A DNA stretch of 36,498 nucleotides from Ruminococcus sp. (GTDB taxonomy: Bacteria > Bacillota > Clostridia > Oscillospirales > Acutalibacteraceae). Each line of letters starts with the position of its first letter. Within the stretch, counting starts at the first letter, position 1. Below the pieces are notes generated by a model. It did no database searches. It worked only from the letters and a program-made list of their open reading frames with translations, and was not told where the DNA came from. The position numbers and the translations under genes were made by a program. The DNA is taken from NCBI GenBank assembly GCA_023665555.1, contig JAMPDR010000018.1, positions 1 through 36,498 on the forward strand, given 5' to 3'. Below, one piece after another: positions 857 to 29,725 of the stretch.

Positions 857-986
857 ATTGTCACCCATCTTAATATGCGGATACTTCTCTGCATAATTTG
901 ATAAGACTTTCCCGCATATTGTAATAAGATAAACGGTAATTAAATCCGGTACATTGCGATCTATTCAACGTTTACTAAGCTAAAAC

Positions 987-1020
987 AGAAAGCACTATTG
1001 TTTTAATCGTAGTGCTTTCT
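987..1020 (-). terminator. Rho-independent terminator of pflBA
   Basis: An 11-bp perfect stem (AGAAAGCACTA / TAGTGCTTTCT) with a 12-nt loop lies 13 bp beyond the pflA stop. On the minus strand it is followed by GTTTTAG. On the plus strand it is followed by a T-rich run, so it may work in both directions. Confidence 0.75.
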
Positions 1021-1033
1021 TAATTTATTCTTT

Positions 1034-1765
1034 TTATTTTATACCAAGCAACTTTTCTGTCTTTGCAACTTGCTCTTCCGTTGGAGGCTGAACTCCTTCA
1101 AGCGGATATTCCATGCCGAGTTCTTTCCACTTGAAAGTACCGAGTGTGTGATACGGAAGTATCTCTACTCTTTCAACAGTTTTGAGCGTTGAAATAAAAT
1201 CTTTCATTTTCGCCAAATCCGCTTCATCATCGGTAATACCCGGAATGAGAACATGCCTTATCCACATTGCTTTACCGTTATCAGAAAGCCATTTTGCCAT
1301 ACGCAAAATGTTGTTGTTTTCATGTCCCGTTAAATCACGATGTCCGCTTTCGTCCATCTGCTTAAGGTCAAGCATAACAAGATCTGTCACTTCCATCAGC
1401 TTTTCAAAACGAGAAAGCCACTTTTCATCTTCGCTGAACGGCTGACCCGAAGTGTCAAGAACTGTGCTGACGCTGTTCTTTTTTGCAAGTGAGAACAACT
1501 CAGTGACAAAATCCATCTGCAATAATGGTTCTCCGCCGCTTACTGTGATTCCGCCTTCTTTTCCCCAATAGGTCTTGTAGCGATACATCTTTTTCCAAAG
1601 AAGCTGAGCATCCCATTCTTCTCCGCCGCCGTGCCATGTTTCAGGATTGTGGCAGAACTTGCATCTCATTGCGCACCCCTGGAGAAACGCAACAAAACGT
1701 ACTCCCGGACCGTCAACAGAGCCAAAGGTTTCAAGTGAATGTATATAGCCCTTAGTCATAAGCAC
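1034..1765 (-). CDS. pflA: Pyruvate formate-lyase activating enzyme (radical SAM)
   Basis: The radical SAM motif C-x3-C-x2-C is clear as GCAMRCKFCHN at residues 31-38 and would ligate a 4Fe-4S cluster. It is followed by the SAM-binding region with SGGEPLLQ. The enzyme abstracts hydrogen from a glycine of PflB to make the glycyl radical. The length (243 aa) and the N-terminal HSLETFGSVDGPGVR signature are typical of PflA. It follows pflB by 3 bp, so the two are co-transcribed. The GTG at 1765 has GGAATG six bases upstream; the ATG at 1759 is an alternative start. The pair points to anaerobic mixed-acid fermentation. Confidence 0.95.
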   Translation of the reverse strand: MLMTKGYIHSLETFGSVDGPGVRFVAFLQGCAMRCKFCHNPETWHGGGEEWDAQLLWKKMYRYKTYWGKEGGITVSGGEPLLQMDFVTELFSLAKKNSVSTVLDTSGQPFSEDEKWLSRFEKLMEVTDLVMLDLKQMDESGHRDLTGHENNNILRMAKWLSDNGKAMWIRHVLIPGITDDEADLAKMKDFISTLKTVERVEILPYHTLGTFKWKELGMEYPLEGVQPPTEEQVAKTEKLLGIK

Positions 1766-1768
1766 AGA

Positions 1769-4021
1769 TTACATTCCAATGTGGCAGGTACGTGAAATAA
1801 CGTCCATCTGCTGTTCCTTGGTGAGGTCAATAAACTTAACTGCATAACCTGAAACACGAATTGTAAAGTTTGCATATTCTTCTTTTTCAGGATGTTCCAT
1901 TGCATCAATCAGCTTTTCCCTGCCGAACACATTAACATTAAGATGATGAGCGCCTTGGTTAAAGTAACCATCAAGAACGCTGACGAGGTTTGTTGTTCTT
2001 TCTGCCTCATCGTGTCCGAGCGCATCCGGACTGATTGTCTGTGTGTTTGAAATACCGTCAAGTGCCCATTCATAAGGAAGCTTTGCAACCGAATTAAGTG
2101 ATGCAAGAAGTCCGTTGTTTTCTGCTCCATAGCTTGGGTTTGCGCCCGGTGAAAGCGGTTCGCCTGCACGGCGTCCGTCAGGCATGTTGCCTGTTGCTTT
2201 GCCGTAAACAACATTCGAAGTGATTGTAAGAATCGAAGTTGTCGGCTCTGAATCACGATAAGTGTGACGGCGCTTAATTTTTGAAAGGAAAGTTTTAAGA
2301 AGCCATACAGCGATATCATCTGCACGGTCATCATCGTTGCCGTATTTCGGGAAATCGCCTTCTGTTTCGTAGTCAACGGCTATACCTGTTTCATCACGAA
2401 TAACCTTAACTTTTGCATATTTAATTGCACTGAGTGAGTCAACAACGTGTGAGAAACCTGCAATGCCTGTTGCGAATGTACGGCGAACATCAGTATCAAT
2501 AAGTGCCATTTCAGCAGCCTCATAATAATACTTATCATGCATGAACTGAATAAGGTTGAGAACGTTAACATAAAGGCCTGCGAGCCAATCCATCATAACG
2601 TCATATTTTGCAATAACTTCATCGTAATCAAGGTATTCACTTGTGATAGGAGCATATGCCGGTCCGCACTGTTCACGTGTTTTAACGTCAACACCGCCGT
2701 TAATTGCATAAAGCAGGCACTTTGCAAGGTTTGCTCTTGCGCCGAAGAACTGCATTTCTTTACCTGTCTGAGTTGCAGAAACGCAACAGCAGATTGAATA
2801 GTCATCGCCCCAAACAGGCTTCATTACGTCATCATTTTCATATTGAATTGAACTGGTTCTGATTGAGATTTCAGCTGCATATCGCTTAAAGTTTTCGGGA
2901 AGTGCACTTGAATAGAGAACTGTGAGGTTAGGTTCGGGTGACGGTCCCATGTTTTCAAGTGTGTGCAGGAAACGATAGTCGGTCTTTGTTACCATGGAGC
3001 GTCCGTCACTGCCGATACCGCCGACTTCGAGTGTTGCCCAAACCGGGTCACCGCTGAACAGCTGATTATATGACGGAATACGTGCGAACTTAACCATGCG
3101 GAATTTCATAACCATGTGGTCAATGATTTCCTGAGCCTGATCTTCAGTAATAATGCCCTTTTCAAGGTCACGCTGAATATAAATATCAAGGAAAGTTGAA
3201 ACACGGCCAACGCTCATTGCTGCACCGTTCTGTGTTTTGATTGCGGCAAGATAACCGAAATAAAGCCACTGTGCTGCTTCTTTTGCTGTTGATGCCGGCT
3301 GTGAAATATCAAAGCCGTAAATCTCAGCCATCTTTTTCATATCTTTAAGTGCAGCAATCTGTCTTGCAATTTCTTCACGCAGACGAATAACTTCATCTGT
3401 CATTGTTCCGTCGCCGCAGTTAGCAAGGTCATCCTGCTTTTCTTTGATGAGGAAGTCAATACCGTAAAGTGCAACGCGGCGATAGTCACCGACAATTCTT
3501 CCGCGGCCGTAGGTGTCGGGAAGTCCTGTGATAATCTTGTTGTGACGAGCCTTTTTCATTTCAGGTGTATATGCATCAAAAACAGCCTGGTTATGAGTTC
3601 TGCTGTACTCAGTGAAAATTTTATGCAGCTTTTCACTCGGAGTGTAACCGTTTGTTGTGCATGCCTGCTCAGCCATTTTGATTCCGCCGAAAGGCATGAA
3701 TGCTCTTTTAAGCGGTTTGTCAGTCTGAAGGCCTACTATCTGTTCAAGGTCCTTTGTTTCTTCGCTGATATATCCGGGACCATAAGATGTGAGTGTTGAA
3801 ACAATTTCTGTTTCCATGTCAAGAACACCGTTTTGAGCGCGCTCTTTCTTCTGAAGTTCCTTCAAAATACCCCAAAGCTTGTTTGTTGCATCTGTCGGAC
3901 CAACAAGGAATGATGAATCGCCGTCATACGGCTTATAGTTTTTCTGAATAAAATCTCTTGTGTTTACTTCTTCTTTCCAAAGCCTTCCGTTAAAGCCTTC
4001 CCATTGAGGAAAATCTGTCAT
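1769..4021 (-). CDS. pflB: Formate C-acetyltransferase (pyruvate formate-lyase)
   Basis: The 750-aa full-length enzyme converts pyruvate and CoA to acetyl-CoA and formate in the cytoplasm by glycyl-radical chemistry. The active-site cysteines lie in [10 protein letters not shown] (Cys411-413). The glycyl-radical motif RVSGYAV is at the C-terminus with the radical glycine at about residue 725. The [12 protein letters not shown] and [10 protein letters not shown] blocks are family hallmarks separating PFL from diol dehydratase-like relatives. An AGGAGG sits seven bases before the ATG. It is first in a two-gene operon with pflA and ends in the shared terminator at 987-1020. Confidence 0.97.
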
Positions 4022-17905: not shown

Positions 17906-18688
17906 TTATTCGTCTACTTCATCCCAATAAAGATTGGCGGACATTGATTTCTCCTCACTATAAGATAAACCATCCTTTGACTCAACAAATTGAGTCGGAA
18001 GTGTAAAACTAATCGTACCTACTTCAAACTCAGATGTATCGATTATAATTCTGTAATTTCCATCCGCGTCCTTTCCTGCAACACGTGCGGTAACCGACTT
18101 TGATTCTCCGTTGGAATGATATACTTGGATCGTCCTACTATTACTCTTGATACCGCTCCCCCAACCGTCAGGTGAAAACGTAATTTCGCACTGATGATTG
18201 CTAAGTGTATTACAGCCCTGCTCGTCAATCACCTTTGCTGTTGGCTGCTTCTTCTCTGTAACTTCCTCTTCCGGTTCTTCCGACTGTGAGGTTGTGGTTT
18301 TCTTTGTTGTGGTCGTCCTAGCTGTTGTCTGAGTGCTGTATGAAACAACAGGCGGAGTCATGTTTGAGGGAATTGTCAAATTGAAATCCGTAGCTGTTGA
18401 ATTATTCTGAGCGGCAACAACTGGATCAGGAGTAAAAGCAGTTGTAACAACTGTCGGCATAGCCATTCCCTGCTGTGTCGTGAGAACCATTGTGTGCGAA
18501 GCGTTTCCATTTGTGTTTGCACTGACGTTCTCAGCAGTAACATTAGGCTGAGTCGGTGTTGACGACAGTGAGGGAACATTCGTAAGCAACATATTCGGCA
18601 AAGTTGTTTCGCCGTTATCATTATCTCCGCATGCCACAAACAATGCGGCTATCATAAATGCGAGAAATACAGCAACAATTTTTTTCAT
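17906..18688 (-). CDS. Putative surface lipoprotein with Thr-rich linker
   Basis: This is a protein of about 260 aa starting MKKIVAVFLAFMIAALFVAC: basic N-terminus, hydrophobic core and a lipobox-like LFVAC with the lipidated Cys at residue 20. A long low-complexity region rich in Thr, Asn, Pro and Val follows, including the TQTTARTTTTKKTTTSQSEE stretch. The C-terminal domain of about 100 aa (from about NTLSNHQCEITFSPDGWGSG to the end) looks beta-rich. No enzyme motif is recognised. It is probably anchored to the membrane outer face; the ligand is unknown. The ribosome site is weak. The mRNA leader contains a family C hairpin. Confidence 0.75.
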   Translation of the reverse strand: MKKIVAVFLAFMIAALFVACGDNDNGETTLPNMLLTNVPSLSSTPTQPNVTAENVSANTNGNASHTMVLTTQQGMAMPTVVTTAFTPDPVVAAQNNSTATDFNLTIPSNMTPPVVSYSTQTTARTTTTKKTTTSQSEEPEEEVTEKKQPTAKVIDEQGCNTLSNHQCEITFSPDGWGSGIKSNSRTIQVYHSNGESKSVTARVAGKDADGNYRIIIDTSEFEVGTISFTLPTQFVESKDGLSYSEEKSMSANLYWDEVDE

Positions 18689-18763
18689 ATCAATCGCCAT
18701 ACGACACGAAACAGGCAAGTAGCATATTTCGCAATCGTCCTTTCTTCATACTTTCCGCTTTTG

Positions 18764-21919: not shown

Positions 21920-24900
21920 TTAAAACAAATCGAACAGATTCATCTGCGTTGTTTCGGGTAACCCTGCAAATGCACCAACTTGCCTGAGCGCTTCGATAAC
22001 AGAACTTGATGCGCCTGCCTTTGACGCAAAATCATCAATTGCAACAAAGGTTATCAATCCGTCGTCTGCATTTTCTTTATTTTTGAATTTTGCGTTGGCA
22101 AGCCCCTCGGCGGCACTGTCACCAACACCGCTGAGCGCATTAAACGGCATCCTGATTTTACCGTTCTCAATCTGATACACTCTTGCGTCTGATTTATAAA
22201 TGTCAACAGGCAAAAACTCAATTCCCCTTGCCATCATTTCGTTAACTACCTGCAAGCCGGGATACATATTCTGCTCTTTAGGAGCGGCCTCTTTACCCAT
22301 ACGCTTAATTTCTGCCATACGATCCTGCACAGCATGTCTGCCCTCAAGAACAGCAACAGCGTCAATATCGCCGCCGCGGACAGTCATGAATGCTGCGTAA
22401 TACTCCAACGGATAGTATATCTTATACCAACCGAGTCTAAGTGCCGCACTAACATATGCAGCAGCATGAGCTTTCGGGAACATGTATTTGATTTTCATGC
22501 ACGAATCAATGTACCACTGCTCAACACCGTGATCTTTCATTGCTTGAATATGTTCTTCTGTCAAAAGTTTTGTTGCCTTACCTTTACGCACGATCTCCAT
22601 GATTTTGAAAGCCATGCTCGGTTCAAGGCCTTTATGCATAAGATAAACCATGATGCTGTCACGAGTACCGATAACTTCGGAAATCGTGCAGATTCCGTCT
22701 TTGATAAGTTCCTGCGCATTACCGAGCCAAACGTCAGTACCATGTGACAGACCTGAAATCTGAAGCATGTCCGAGAAATTTTTCGGCTTTGCATCAAGCA
22801 GCATTTGAATGGTGAACGGAGTGCCGAGTTCAGGAATAGAAAGCGTTCCCGTTGGACAGTCTATATCCTCTGCGGTAACTCCGAGTGGTTCGGGCGATGC
22901 CAAAAGTTCATATACTTTAGGATCGCAGATATCTGTTTCCATAACCGGAATACCGGTTAAATCTTCAAGATGTTTATAAAGTGTCGGAACATCGTGACCG
23001 AGGTTATCAAGTTTGAGGATGGTATCATGAAGTGCATGGAAGTCAAAGTGTGTTGTAACAGTGCCTTTGTTTGCATCATCGGCAGGATGCTGAACAGGAG
23101 TGAAATCCTCTGCCTCATATGCATTCGGCACAACCACCATGCCGCCCGGATGCTGACCTGTTGTTCGCTTAACACCTGTGCATCCTCGTGTGAGCCTGTC
23201 CTCTTCGGCACGGCTGACTTTCAGTCCTCTTTCTTCAAGATATTTCTTAACATATCCGTAAGCAGTTTTGTCGGCAACTGTTGCCATTGTTCCTGCCTTG
23301 AAAACATGTGACGAACCGAACAGATCTTCGGTGTATTTATGTGCTCTTGACTGATAATCACCTGAGAAGTTAAGGTCGATATCAGGGCTTTTATCACCCT
23401 TGAAGCCAAGGAATGTTTCAAACGGAATGTCGTGTCCGTCACGTTCCATGTTTGTTCCGCATTCGGGACATGCCTTAACCGGCAGGTCATATCCGGAACC
23501 CACAGAACCATCAAGGAAAAATTCGCTGTGCTTGCAGTTCGGACATCTGTAATGCGGCGCAAGCGGATTAACCTCAGAGATACCCGACGCATTCGCAACA
23601 TAAGACGAACCTACAGAACCTCGTGAGCCAACGTGATATCCGTGATCCTCTGAGTTTTTAACAAGTTTCTGCGCGATCATATAAAGAACGCCGAATCCGT
23701 GCTTAATGATTGAGTCAAGCTCTCTTGTGAGTCTTAATGCAACATACTCAGGAACAGGGTCACCGTAAAGACGCTTTGTTCTTTCCCAGCAAAGCGATTT
23801 CAACTCATCGTCAGCGCCGTCGATGCTCGGCGGATAGTTTCCGTTCGGAATCGGAATGATTCTTTCAATCATATCCGCGATAATATTCGGGTTAGTGATA
23901 ACCACCTCTTTGGCAGTTTCTTCGCCGAGATATGCAAACTCGGCAAGCATATCGTTTGTATTTCTGAAATACAGCGGTGCCTGTTTATCTGCATCAGGGA
24001 ATCCCTGTCCAGCCATGAGAATGGCTCTGTATGCCGAGTCACCGGGATCGATAAAATGTACGTCGCATGTTGCAACAACCAGCTTACCAAGCTGATCAGC
24101 AACGTGTATAACCTTGCGGTTGAAGTTTTGAATATCCTCAACAGAAGTGATATCTGGATATTTCTCACTCCTTATCATGTATTCATTGTTTCCGCATGGC
24201 TGAATTTCCAGATAATCATAAAAAGATGCAATTTCAAGAATACGCTCATCACTTTCGCCGTTTACAATTGCTCTGTAAAGTTCACCTGCTTCACAGGCAC
24301 TGCCGATAATGAGTCCCTCTCGATGCTTGATAAGTTCACTTTTAGGTATTATCGGGCGGCGGTAGAAATATTTGAGGTTGGAAAGCGATATAAGCTGATA
24401 GAGGTTTTTTAGTCCTGTGTTATTTCTGGCAAGAATAATTTGATGGAAATACTTCGCTTTTTTGACTTTTTTCCAATCATCAAACGATTGCTGTGTATCA
24501 TCAATAAAGTAAGCCTCCATACCATAGATTATCTTTATCTTATCGCCTGCCGCGGCTCTTGCTTCGGGATATGCCTGAACAACACCGTGGTCAGTGATTG
24601 CAATTGCTTTGTGTCCCCAGTCAATGGCGCGCTTAACAAGAACCTTTGCGTCTGTCATGCCGTCCATCATAGACATTTTGGTATGAAGATGAAGTTCAAC
24701 ACGTTTTTCTTCTGCATCATCTTTCGGCTTGATTTTTTCAACAAGCGATATCGCCTTTGGTGAGATAACGTATTCGCTTGAATATTTATCAAATATGACA
24801 TCGCCCCTTATAAGAACAGTTACACCCTCCTTGATTTTGTCAAGCAGCTGAGCGCAGTTTTCTTTTCGTTCGAACACTTTACATGTGTACGAATATGTAC

Positions 24901-25687
24901 CGTCTGTAACATTGAAATTGATAATATTGCTTCTTCCGTCTTTGGTTTCTCTGCTTTCAAATGAGAAAACATCACCCCATATAACACAGCTGCCGTCATC
25001 AATTGAAACTTCAGCAAGCGGCTTTGGCATTTTAGTGATTTTGCTACCGTAAATTGGCCTTGCCGTATCGAGATAAATCGGAAGGCCTTCAACGATTTTG
25101 TGCTCCTTGGGTTTTGACGGGGAATCTGACGGCTGCATTTTTGCGATAACACTTTTCGGTATATCTTTTTCAGCCTGTTTAATCATCGAAACAACTTCTT
25201 TGCTGTCAATTGTCATTTCCTCGCCGACAAAATCAACCTCTATAGCCCTTGAAAAACGCTTTTTAACAAGGTTCACGATGAACGTATCACAACCGCATTC
25301 ACGAAGAACATCCATACCGCCGTGAGTGAGATTAACAGTTAACTTTTTACCGTCAAAGTTGGCGGTACTGCCCTTAAAAAAGCCGTTACTTGCGGCAACT
25401 GACGCATTGACACAGCGCACTATCGTATCAAAATATTCCTCTGAAAAACATTCGGAAGGCATTTTCGGATTGATTACCGCATGGTTAAGTCTGAGCAGAG
25501 ATGCAATAACGCTCTCTGCCTTCTCAATCACTGCACCGTTCACCAATTTGTCAAAGCACAAATCAAGCTCCATGAGCCGTTTTTCATTGTATATTTTTAT
25601 ATTCTCAACCTGACACTGAGCGAAAACAGATGTCAGTACTTCATCATTAAACATCTCGCCGAAAAGCGAAATAAAACTACAATTCAT
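21920..25687 (-). CDS. polC: PolC-type DNA polymerase III alpha subunit lacking the exonuclease domain
   Basis: This 1255-aa protein is the PolC replicative polymerase class. In order it shows an N-terminal domain, an OB-like segment (about 215-320), PHP start (VELHLHTKMSMMDG, AITDHGVVQAYPEA), a Cys4 zinc finger (CPNC...CPEC), SPDIDLNFSGDYQ with catalytic Asp residues, FKAGTMATVADKTAYGYV, KRTTGQHPGGMVVVP and a C-terminal clamp motif QMNLFDLF. After YGMEAYFIDD the chain goes straight to YFHQIILARNNTGLKNLYQL. The roughly 180-aa DnaQ-like 3'-5' exonuclease expected here, with its DxE start and HxxxxD end, is missing, matching the short length. The ATG at 25687 has GGGGAG upstream. It follows ispG by 27 bp. 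Confidence 0.95.
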   Translation of the reverse strand: MNCSFISLFGEMFNDEVLTSVFAQCQVENIKIYNEKRLMELDLCFDKLVNGAVIEKAESVIASLLRLNHAVINPKMPSECFSEEYFDTIVRCVNASVAASNGFFKGSTANFDGKKLTVNLTHGGMDVLRECGCDTFIVNLVKKRFSRAIEVDFVGEEMTIDSKEVVSMIKQAEKDIPKSVIAKMQPSDSPSKPKEHKIVEGLPIYLDTARPIYGSKITKMPKPLAEVSIDDGSCVIWGDVFSFESRETKDGRSNIINFNVTDGTYSYTCKVFERKENCAQLLDKIKEGVTVLIRGDVIFDKYSSEYVISPKAISLVEKIKPKDDAEEKRVELHLHTKMSMMDGMTDAKVLVKRAIDWGHKAIAITDHGVVQAYPEARAAAGDKIKIIYGMEAYFIDDTQQSFDDWKKVKKAKYFHQIILARNNTGLKNLYQLISLSNLKYFYRRPIIPKSELIKHREGLIIGSACEAGELYRAIVNGESDERILEIASFYDYLEIQPCGNNEYMIRSEKYPDITSVEDIQNFNRKVIHVADQLGKLVVATCDVHFIDPGDSAYRAILMAGQGFPDADKQAPLYFRNTNDMLAEFAYLGEETAKEVVITNPNIIADMIERIIPIPNGNYPPSIDGADDELKSLCWERTKRLYGDPVPEYVALRLTRELDSIIKHGFGVLYMIAQKLVKNSEDHGYHVGSRGSVGSSYVANASGISEVNPLAPHYRCPNCKHSEFFLDGSVGSGYDLPVKACPECGTNMERDGHDIPFETFLGFKGDKSPDIDLNFSGDYQSRAHKYTEDLFGSSHVFKAGTMATVADKTAYGYVKKYLEERGLKVSRAEEDRLTRGCTGVKRTTGQHPGGMVVVPNAYEAEDFTPVQHPADDANKGTVTTHFDFHALHDTILKLDNLGHDVPTLYKHLEDLTGIPVMETDICDPKVYELLASPEPLGVTAEDIDCPTGTLSIPELGTPFTIQMLLDAKPKNFSDMLQISGLSHGTDVWLGNAQELIKDGICTISEVIGTRDSIMVYLMHKGLEPSMAFKIMEIVRKGKATKLLTEEHIQAMKDHGVEQWYIDSCMKIKYMFPKAHAAAYVSAALRLGWYKIYYPLEYYAAFMTVRGGDIDAVAVLEGRHAVQDRMAEIKRMGKEAAPKEQNMYPGLQVVNEMMARGIEFLPVDIYKSDARVYQIENGKIRMPFNALSGVGDSAAEGLANAKFKNKENADDGLITFVAIDDFASKAGASSSVIEALRQVGAFAGLPETTQMNLFDLF

Positions 25688-25714
25688 TTTTTCTCCCCGT
25701 ATATTAAACAATAC

Positions 25715-26770
25715 TTATTTCATCGACTCAATTTCCTTGAACAATTCATCAACGATTTTATCCTCTGCGACCTTGCGCAAAATTTCGCCGTGCTTGAAAA
25801 TCAGTCCGCAGCCGTCACCGCCTGCAATACCGATATCTGCTTCTCTGGCTTCTCCCGGTCCGTTGACTGCACAGCCCATGACTGCAACCTTAAGAGGCTT
25901 GTCAACATCGCGAAGTCTTTCTTCAACCTCGTTTGCAAGTGAGATAAGGTCAATTTTTGTTCTGCCGCATGTGGGACATGATACCAAAGCGGGACTGTTC
26001 TTTTTCATGCCGATTGCCTTAAGAATGTCAAAACCTGCGTAAACCTCATTGACAGGGTCTGCAGTAAGCGAAACTCTGATCGTGTCACCGATACCTCTAG
26101 TTAGAAGCGAACCGATACCAACCGATGATTTGATAAGTCCCATTCGCTGCGTACCGGATTCCGTAACACCAAGATGAAGCGGATAGTCACACATTTGAGC
26201 AACTGTTTCATATGCTTTTATCATATTATGTACATCCGATGATTTGATTGAAATCACGATATCATCAAAATCATATTTTTCAAGAAGTCTGACATGATAC
26301 ATTGCGCTTTCAGCCATTGCCATAGGTGTGGGCGCGCCGTATTTTGCAAGAATATCCTTTTCAACAGAACCCGAATTAACACCGATTCGAATCGGCACAC
26401 CGTGAGCCTTGCACTTTTCAGCAACGGCTTTCACATTTTCATCAGCGCCGATATTGCCCGGATTGATGCGTATCTTGTCAACACCTGCGTCAACACAGTC
26501 AAGCGCAATTTTATGGTTGAAATGGATATCAGCCACGACAGGTACATCAACTGCATTTTTCAGTGCATAAACCGTTTTAACAGCCTCACTGTCGGGGACT
26601 GCAACTCGGATTATCTGACAACCTGCTTTTTCAAGAGCAAGTGCCTGCTTAACGTTTCCGTCAATGTCATGAGCAGGAATGTTAAGCATTGACTGAACTG
26701 TAATATCACTGTCGCCGCCGATTACAAAAGAACCGACCTTGACAGCCTTAGTTTTTCTTCTTTCTATCAT
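25715..26770 (-). CDS. ispG: 4-hydroxy-3-methylbut-2-enyl diphosphate synthase (GcpE)
   Basis: This protein of about 351 aa is a 4Fe-4S enzyme of the MEP pathway, converting MEcPP to HMBPP. It opens with RRKTKAVKVGSFVIGG and VQSMLNIPAHDIDG. The TIM-barrel part includes VADIHFNHKIAL, KIRINPGNIG and IGVNSGSVE. Cluster ligands are in SCPTCGRTKID and AVMGCAVNGPGEA. The ATG at 26770 has GGGTGA upstream; a GTG nine bases earlier is less likely. The adjacency ispG-polC is common in Clostridia. A family B tail lies directly upstream, so the promoter may be inside or beyond repeats. Confidence 0.95.
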   Translation of the reverse strand: MIERRKTKAVKVGSFVIGGDSDITVQSMLNIPAHDIDGNVKQALALEKAGCQIIRVAVPDSEAVKTVYALKNAVDVPVVADIHFNHKIALDCVDAGVDKIRINPGNIGADENVKAVAEKCKAHGVPIRIGVNSGSVEKDILAKYGAPTPMAMAESAMYHVRLLEKYDFDDIVISIKSSDVHNMIKAYETVAQMCDYPLHLGVTESGTQRMGLIKSSVGIGSLLTRGIGDTIRVSLTADPVNEVYAGFDILKAIGMKKNSPALVSCPTCGRTKIDLISLANEVEERLRDVDKPLKVAVMGCAVNGPGEAREADIGIAGGDGCGLIFKHGEILRKVAEDKIVDELFKEIESMK

Positions 26771-26785
26771 AGTTATCACCCTTAT

Positions 26786-28631: not shown

Positions 28632-28660
28632 TTTATTATTATTGGCTAATGATATATAAT
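28632..28660 (+). promoter_or_regulatory. Possible promoter of the DUF2804 gene
   Basis: A TATAAT at 28655-28660 lies 33 bp before the start codon. The -35 at 17-bp spacing (TTTATT) is weak, so the call rests mainly on the -10 and position. Confidence 0.4.
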
Positions 28661-28693
28661 TTAATGGAAACATTTTGTGGAGGTATAACGAAA

Positions 28694-29725
28694 ATGGCAA
28701 GAAATCATGAGGTTACTCAAAAACACAATCTTCTCAATCCTGACGGAACTCTCGCAGAACCCGGCTGGTCAAAAAGCCTGATTCAGGTTTACAACAGAGA
28801 GGATATCAAGGCGCCTAAATTCAGAATCAAGGAATGGGACTATTATCTCATCCTTGCAGACAAGCACGCTGTTGCACTCACTCTTTCAGATGACGGATAT
28901 ATCGGCATGCAGTCTGCGTCACTGCTTGTTTTTGACGATGAAAATCCGTGGGAGATTACAAACTCGGTTCTTAATTTCTTCCCGATGGGTAAGTATAATC
29001 TTCCGAGAACATCCGAAAAGGGCGATATACATTATCACGATAAAACCCTTGACATGGATTTCATCAAAAACGGCGAAACACGTCACATCTTCGGTGAATA
29101 CAGAAACTTCAAAGATGGTAAGACGCTTAAAGTTGATGTGACCCTTACACAGCCGCCGATGGATACAATGGTAATTGCAACACCGTGGAAAGAAAACAAA
29201 AAAGCTTTCTATTATAATCAGAAAGTCAACTGCATGAGAGCATCAGGCTATGCAGAGTTTGACGGTGTGAGATATGACTTCAACCCCGAAACCGACTTCG
29301 GTACTCTTGACTGGGGACGCGGTGTGTGGACATATGACAACACATGGAACTGGGGCAGCGGCAACGGCTGGATAAACGGCAAGCCTTTCGGCTTTAATAT
29401 TGGCTATGGTTTCGGTGACACAACAGCTGCAAGTGAAAACATACTTTTCTATGACGGTGTTGCTCACAAACTTGACGATGTCAGCTTTAACATTCCGGCA
29501 ACAAGCTATACCGACCCGTGGACATTCACTTCGAGCGACGGTCGTTTTGAGATGGACTTCAAACCTGTTATCGACCGTGCAGCAAAAATCAGCTTGAAAA
29601 TTATTGAAACAGATCAGCATCAGGTGTTCGGAAGATTGTCAGGTAAGGCTGTTCTTGATGACGGTACTGTTCTTGAAGTCAAGGATTTGATGTGCTTTGC
29701 AGAAAGAGTAAGAATGAAATATTAA
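28694..29725 (+). CDS. DUF2804 domain-containing protein
   Basis: This is a protein of about 343 aa. Segments such as HNLLNPDGTLAEPGWSKSL and FNPETDFGTLDWGRGVW, then YDNTWNWGSGNGWINGKPFG, match DUF2804, a family rich in Trp and Gly with a predicted beta-sheet fold reminiscent of lipocalin-like or hydroxysteroid-related proteins. The biochemical role is unknown. There is no signal peptide or transmembrane helix. The ATG at 28694 has GGAGG nine bases upstream; an in-frame ATG at 28649 lies before the -10. A reductase gene follows 19 bp later, so the two are probably co-transcribed. Confidence 0.85.
   Translation: MARNHEVTQKHNLLNPDGTLAEPGWSKSLIQVYNREDIKAPKFRIKEWDYYLILADKHAVALTLSDDGYIGMQSASLLVFDDENPWEITNSVLNFFPMGKYNLPRTSEKGDIHYHDKTLDMDFIKNGETRHIFGEYRNFKDGKTLKVDVTLTQPPMDTMVIATPWKENKKAFYYNQKVNCMRASGYAEFDGVRYDFNPETDFGTLDWGRGVWTYDNTWNWGSGNGWINGKPFGFNIGYGFGDTTAASENILFYDGVAHKLDDVSFNIPATSYTDPWTFTSSDGRFEMDFKPVIDRAAKISLKIIETDQHQVFGRLSGKAVLDDGTVLEVKDLMCFAERVRMKY

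Follow-up and report, generated by a model that had tools for sequence, protein, structure and literature searches.

A PolC replicative polymerase without its DnaQ-like exonuclease domain in a Ruminococcus sp., and the distribution of this form in Clostridia

Results

The window (the whole stretch of DNA analyzed, 36,498 nucleotides of contig JAMPDR010000018.1 from the Ruminococcus sp. assembly GCA_023665555.1) carries on its minus strand, at positions 21920..25711, the gene polC, which codes for the replicative DNA polymerase PolC. The open reading frame (ORF) has 1263 residues when read from a TTG codon; the probable start is the ATG at 25687 (codon 9), from which the protein counts 1255 residues, the length given in an earlier note made from the sequence alone. 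The product was identified as PolC by the NCBIfam equivalog models NF001688 (1456 bits, cut-off 873) and TIGR01405 (1344 bits, cut-off 1043), while the DnaE models listed by NCBIfam all remained below their cut-offs. In its genome, a draft of 120 contigs that is 98% complete, no second PolC carrying an exonuclease was found, the matches being restricted to this PolC and one DnaE-type protein.

When the protein was compared with Pfam, no RNase_T (DnaQ-like exonuclease) domain was listed up to an expectation value (E) of 1. The PHP match (PF02811, residues 339-503) was uninterrupted across the usual site of the exonuclease in other PolCs, which corresponds here to 24449-24505 on the minus strand (residues 403-421 of the 1263-residue ORF). 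The PHP part preceding this site (24497..24706, minus) contains the metal ligands H341, H343, D350, H375 and E399, in columns that are invariant in our alignment A2. It is followed by a linker of 17 residues (406-422; 24446..24496, minus), which replaces the insertion of about 200 residues, and then by the second PHP part (24047..24445, minus), in which the Pfam match and the alignment columns place the ligands H423, C473, D550 and H552. All nine ligands of the PHP metal site (HHDHEHCDH) are thus present. When the insert was measured between the PHP 'DD' following ligand E and ligand H, its length was bimodal in 105 PolCs of the order, with 4-33 residues in 70 proteins without the exonuclease (exo-less) and 193-215 in 35 proteins with it (exo+). 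By eye, some of the short linkers might retain the tail of the insert, an impression that we do not put forward as a finding. Furthermore, the engineered Geobacillus kaustophilus PolC devoid of its exonuclease (3F2B) aligned over the junction with short gaps only. These results confirmed that the window protein is a genuine PolC without the DnaQ/RNase_T exonuclease.

The rest of the protein is complete. The N-terminal NI and NII regions (25103..25663, minus) gave weak matches to PF14480 (residues 17-75) and PF11490 (93-203); the OB-fold N-terminal of PHP, with approximate limits at 24737..24994 (minus), gave a match to PF01336 (258-321), and 3F2B aligns from residue 238. These three matches follow one another in this order, each slightly below its curated cut-off. 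The Pol3, finger and HHH Pfam domains were all matched, and the finger keeps its four cysteines. The Asp pair D777 and D779 (PDIDLNF; 23375..23383, minus), which we take to be catalytic in the polymerase, and the third polymerase Asp, D902 (23006-23008), are invariant in alignment A2. At the C-terminus, QMNLF (21932..21946, minus) corresponds to the clamp-binding consensus QL[SD]LF (PMC3919608). The view of the earlier note that the PHP, polymerase, zinc finger and clamp motifs are intact is therefore upheld.

The same architecture was found in relatives. A search of 39 genomes, own included, covered 24 of the genus and 15 that belong to other families within the order. In 24/24 genus genomes the match was continuous across the junction, two matches being incomplete at the C-terminal end. 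The same holds for L140, a named metagenome-assembled genome (MAG) with 73% identity, among the best 80 matches listed. In the window itself, the reading frame is open through the junction. For the 15 genomes of other families, ten PolC frames measured 1439-1502 residues and two others, of 1364 and 1377 residues, were exo+ by sequence; one genome had an exo-less PolC of 1135 residues, and two gave DnaE-type matches only. In addition, a second PolC-like match in the same genus (G002:C14:29294-33001) showed 61% identity to the window protein over residues 7-1261, with no room for an exonuclease.

At the family level, a PolC match was obtained in 132 of 150 genomes, 44 of which were read as exo-less from the match coordinates; 37 of these calls were also checked by sequence, and seven rest on coordinates (G175, G159, G133, G055, G116, G177 and G106). 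Within the order, fetched sequences showed that ten PolCs of family f2 and three of genus g153 (family f19) are exo-less, and that two of genus g164 (f19) are exo+. Within the class, sequences from eight further families confirmed the exo-less form. Among the best 80 matches listed, the best named relatives were labelled Clostridia and Oscillospiraceae, and the exo-less examples included Desulfosporosinus fructosivorans and MAGs labelled Selenomonadaceae, Syntrophomonadaceae, Lachnospiraceae and Oscillospiraceae. Many of these genomes are drafts of dozens to hundreds of contigs, so that single absences may be gaps. The fragment L171 and the accessory copies L122 and L123 were left out of the counts, and the collections can share rows, L056 and L203 for instance having the same sequence over the tree region.

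Next, the trait was followed on trees of the PolC core, for which the rows of genus g1 were thinned. On a FastTree of 184 cores, rooted on a single exo+ outgroup row (Brevibacillus), 18 changes of exonuclease state were counted, at least 14 of them forced by starred branches; on an IQ-TREE of 47 chosen rows, nine were counted. Branch support was SH-like or SH-aLRT (Shimodaira-Hasegawa type), without bootstraps. A single split between exo-less and exo+ forms was rejected by the approximately unbiased (AU) test (log-likelihood lower by 1093, p-AU 0.00041), which does not distinguish gain from loss. Both forms are found within genus g29. The exo-less form seems to have emerged on many occasions. 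These repeated changes, together with the many relatives in the order that have the domain, support the description of the window protein as a PolC that cleanly lacks one domain and is otherwise intact.

Loss rather than gain was probably the usual direction. The outgroup is exo+, the distances of core and exonuclease are correlated (0.67), and a single insertion is a simpler account than many, given that every exo+ form seen has the same domain at the same site. A dead exonuclease remnant in genus g31 points the same way. In two genomes of this genus (G053 and G183), the PolC insert measures 175-179 residues and is not recognized by PF00929; a profile of 206 positions built on PolC exonucleases matched it only at 71-205 or 81-205. 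The DEDDh residues, broken in the alignment in both proteins, are intact in all the remaining 91 of the 93 exo+ PolCs; g31 looks like an exception. The PHP and polymerase residues of both proteins are intact. In the exonuclease tree, their terminal branches have lengths of 3.01 (G183) and 3.56 (G053) changes per column, against 0.14 and 0.094, respectively, in the core tree. Judged from these residues and branches, the g31 PolC is a candidate intermediate of exonuclease loss.

The PHP metal site was intact in 108/108 fully readable main-copy exo-less PolCs, and in one further exo-less fragment at all six positions covered. The only broken site among the fully readable main-copy PolCs was seen in the exo+ protein L210, where one ligand is changed from His to Tyr. 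Short accessory PolC-like copies of about 800-900 residues, devoid of most of the N-terminal region and of the exonuclease, were also observed: L122 (in G183; 969-3494, minus), L123 (in G110), G265:C52 and G200:C9. The three polymerase Asp residues are kept in L122 and not in L123.

The spacing between PHP ligands E and H had a median of 23 residues in exo-less PolCs (range 10-43, n=109; 23 in the window protein) and of 213 in exo+ PolCs (n=93); it was 20 in DnaE1 (n=29), with 20 also in the DnaE1 from the genome of the window. In Mycobacterium tuberculosis DnaE1, which proofreads with a PHP site of nine metal ligands, the loop between these two ligands lines a groove leading into the site, and the DnaQ domain of PolC is inserted in that same loop, beside the PHP site (PMC5636811).

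The DnaE-type protein of the genome was called DnaE1 from its membership of Clostridia, as in PMC3919608. Among 31 DnaE1 rows, the PHP site was intact in 28 of the 29 that were readable, and in all 14 exo-less genomes where DnaE1 was found; in a fifteenth, G078, no DnaE1 match was found. Exo-less pairs had a median ratio of PolC to DnaE1 distances of 0.80, and exo+ pairs one of 0.78. A comparison per genome (13 exo-less, 7 exo+) gave no faster evolution of exo-less PolC relative to DnaE1 (difference 0.000, p 0.50). A relaxed evolution of exo-less PolC was thus rejected, in agreement with the opinion in the earlier note that the gene is not decaying.

In 18/150 family genomes (8/115 of good quality, with a completeness of 90% or more and a contamination of 5% or less), no PolC match was obtained at E 1e-40, and at least two lineages without PolC were found on the DnaE1 tree. 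Among the f1 genomes concerned (G045, G074, G080, G081, G093, G113, G117 and G145), seven of eight belong to one DnaE1 clade. In seven of these eight, the DnaE1 frames measured 1207-1287 residues, compared with 1139-1188 in most of the sampled relatives bearing PolC.

Other DEDDh proteins were counted with PF00929 in the good-quality family genomes, after one match, that of PolC itself, was deducted in each exo+ genome other than G053 and G183; as a control, PF00929 gave matches in 10/14 well-known genomes. No excess was observed in exo-less genomes (mean 0.97, n=36, versus 1.03 in exo+ genomes, n=71; p 0.59). Besides PolC, no PF00929 match was found in 9/36 exo-less and 8/71 exo+ genomes. Six of these nine exo-less genomes fall in one PolC clade, G129 and G165 lie elsewhere and G055 was not placed. 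The PolC-exonuclease profile (16 clostridial sequences) gave nothing credible in the nine at E up to 10, the sole match covering 25 positions in G130 (E 0.16). MutS1 was over its cut-off in the genome of the window and in eight of the nine; the ninth, G123, gave a weak match only. This genome of 1.0 Mb (96% complete), whose PolC is exo-less and in which neither a PF00929 protein nor a MutS1 above the cut-off was found, is a candidate for low replication fidelity.

The profile search of the genome of the window detected two RNase_T (DEDDh) proteins. One, of 290 residues, adjoins an ORF that we read as resembling a phage-type integrase. The other, of 426 residues (L002 184-1464, contig C34), has a weak region resembling DNA-alkylation repair proteins (PF08713, under the cut-off). 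The family sample includes two other members of the genus, one of which has an RNase_T frame of similar length (413 residues). The two genes lie on contigs C10 and C34, and polC and dnaE on C30 and C54.

Directly upstream of polC lies ispG/gcpE (25715..26779, minus; PF04551, 504 bits), its usual chromosomal neighbour in Clostridia. Elsewhere, the window contains a gene for a DUF2804 protein (28649-29725, plus) and an ORF of 270 residues (17906-18718, minus) without Pfam match at E 0.001.

Discussion

The earlier note was unsure whether this form of PolC had been reported. The basic finding is already known, since exo-less PolCs were described by Timinskas et al. (Nucleic Acids Research, 2013, PMC3919608). 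In that survey, 6% of PolCs were without the exonuclease insertion, which was called surprising, and all came from Clostridia or Negativicutes, bar one extra copy in Thermotogae; they made up 16% of the PolCs in PolC+DnaE1 systems (Table 2) and were treated as PolC variants. The range observed here fits the published one. The window protein shares with that variant its N-terminal domain, OB, PHP, Pol3 and helix-hairpin-helix (HhH) regions, the absence of the insertion, the DnaE1 partner and the taxonomic range, and it can be assigned to it, with the exonuclease absent, PolC otherwise complete and a DnaE1 partner in Clostridia. Exo-less PolCs are counted in that paper; in the part of its text available, there is no count of independent losses, dead intermediate or DnaQ census. 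Added here are the recurrence of the change, the candidate dead exonuclease, the lack of a DEDDh excess, the PHP conservation and the rate comparison. No other paper devoted to exo-less PolC was found by titles and abstract openings, a search with most subscription papers outside it; the DnaQ-domain map of PMC12926913 may show such forms.

With canonical PolC (Bacillus subtilis, Staphylococcus aureus, Enterococcus faecium 9QPC), the window protein has in common the domain order, the motifs and the NCBIfam family, but it is devoid of the DEDDh exonuclease of about 200 residues (211 in E. faecium, PMC12592400) that is situated within PHP. In the laboratory constructs PolC-deltaN-deltaExo of G. 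kaustophilus (3F2B) and S. aureus (PMC3656037), the exonuclease was removed at nearly the same place; however, these are engineered and their N-terminal region was removed, whereas the window PolC is natural and keeps it. The S. aureus construct polymerizes with a kpol of 330 per s (PMC3656037). Similarly, M. tuberculosis DnaE1 has the nine PHP ligands and a PHP loop without DnaQ insert, but it is not a PolC, and the PHP activity measured there is deduced here (PMC5636811).

The best explanation, to which we give a probability of about 0.6, is that of a functional PolC whose DnaQ-like 3'-5' exonuclease was lost by clean excision and in which PHP most likely edits instead. The insert would have been excised cleanly, which would restore the loop joining the fifth and sixth PHP metal ligands to about the DnaE length. 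The loss would be tolerated owing to redundant proofreaders in clostridial PolC+DnaE1 systems. Clostridia mostly have three apparently active ones, PolC PHP, DnaE1 PHP and PolC DnaQ (PMC12926913); removing one leaves two, which would explain a repeated loss. Once the exonuclease had been lost, the PHP nuclease site of PolC, zinc-dependent and presumably catalytically active, would most likely be the proofreader and edit the primer end, and the PHP of the companion DnaE1 probably edits too. Among the three options named in the earlier note (PHP, a separate DnaQ-like protein or no proofreading), PHP fits best, because some exo-less relatives are without any PF00929 protein; for this species it is the probable proofreader, and the other two are less favoured.

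Several points weigh against this explanation. The retention of the PHP motif is not specific to exo-less forms: as the ligands are intact in 91/92 readable exo+ PolCs as well as in all the exo-less ones, PHP seems constrained with or without the exonuclease. The PHP exonuclease activity of exo-less PolCs is something we infer from metal ligands and loop length, and the accessory copies L122 and L123 have a degenerate PHP site. The genome of the window encodes two DEDDh-type proteins, so that an exonuclease could act in trans in this species. As for the loss, several of the earliest branches of Clostridia and Negativicutes are exo-less on the rooted tree, with its one outgroup row, so that, by parsimony alone, the ancestral state of these groups may have been either form. 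Given these early lineages and an exonuclease tree poorly resolved at depth, lateral re-gains may have occurred.

It could also be proposed that PolC has become accessory, the genome being copied by DnaE1 with its own PHP proofreader, so that the loss of the exonuclease would be a step towards the loss of PolC. This possibility was raised by Timinskas et al. (PMC3919608), and the genomes and lineages without PolC, together with the intact PHP of DnaE1, speak for it. We nevertheless consider it unlikely: PolC is present in all 24 genus genomes with its polymerase and clamp motifs intact and does not evolve faster relative to DnaE1, and the DnaE1 tree does not show the main clade without PolC to lie inside an exo-less one.

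Proofreading in trans by a separate DnaQ-like protein is the situation of epsilon in Escherichia coli. The two RNase_T proteins of 290 and 426 residues could play this role here, and the 413-residue frame in the other genus member agrees with it. However, exo-less genomes have no excess of PF00929 proteins and nine of 36 have none, and the two candidates are encoded on contigs apart from those of polC and dnaE. This hypothesis is thus rather improbable.

Replication without PolC proofreading, relying on base selection and mismatch repair, seems very unlikely. MutS1 is found in nearly all the exo-less genomes without PF00929, and exo-less genomes are smaller (median 1.8 versus 2.2 Mb, p 0.001, relatedness ignored). 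However, the presence of MutS1 is uninformative, because it is over the cut-off in 141/150 family genomes whatever the PolC form, and the perfect conservation of the PHP metal site in main-copy exo-less PolCs is expected if the site is used. Finally, a gap in the assembly or a repeat collapsed at 24.45-24.50 kb, which the earlier note had considered and which a draft of 120 contigs might suggest, has a negligible likelihood and was rejected, as the frame is open through the junction and the exo-less layout recurs in all 24 genus genomes, own included, and in many other families.

Returning to PHP editing after a clean excision, a wider proposal, tentative and a little short of an even chance, can be made. 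Across Clostridia, PolC would have repeatedly discarded its DnaQ domain, first dead and then excised, and some lineages without recognizable DEDDh protein (PF00929) would replicate on PHP proofreading alone, the excision re-forming a loop of the DnaE kind through which the primer end gains access to the PHP site. PolC surveys defined by the RNase_T insertion, as in a study of the ibezapolstat target (PMC11963600), would miss exo-less forms. The exo-less genomes without PF00929 match offer a natural setting in which PHP proofreading could be studied without a competing DnaQ. For this family of polymerases, the DnaQ domain, a hallmark of PolC, turns out to be dispensable and repeatedly changing.
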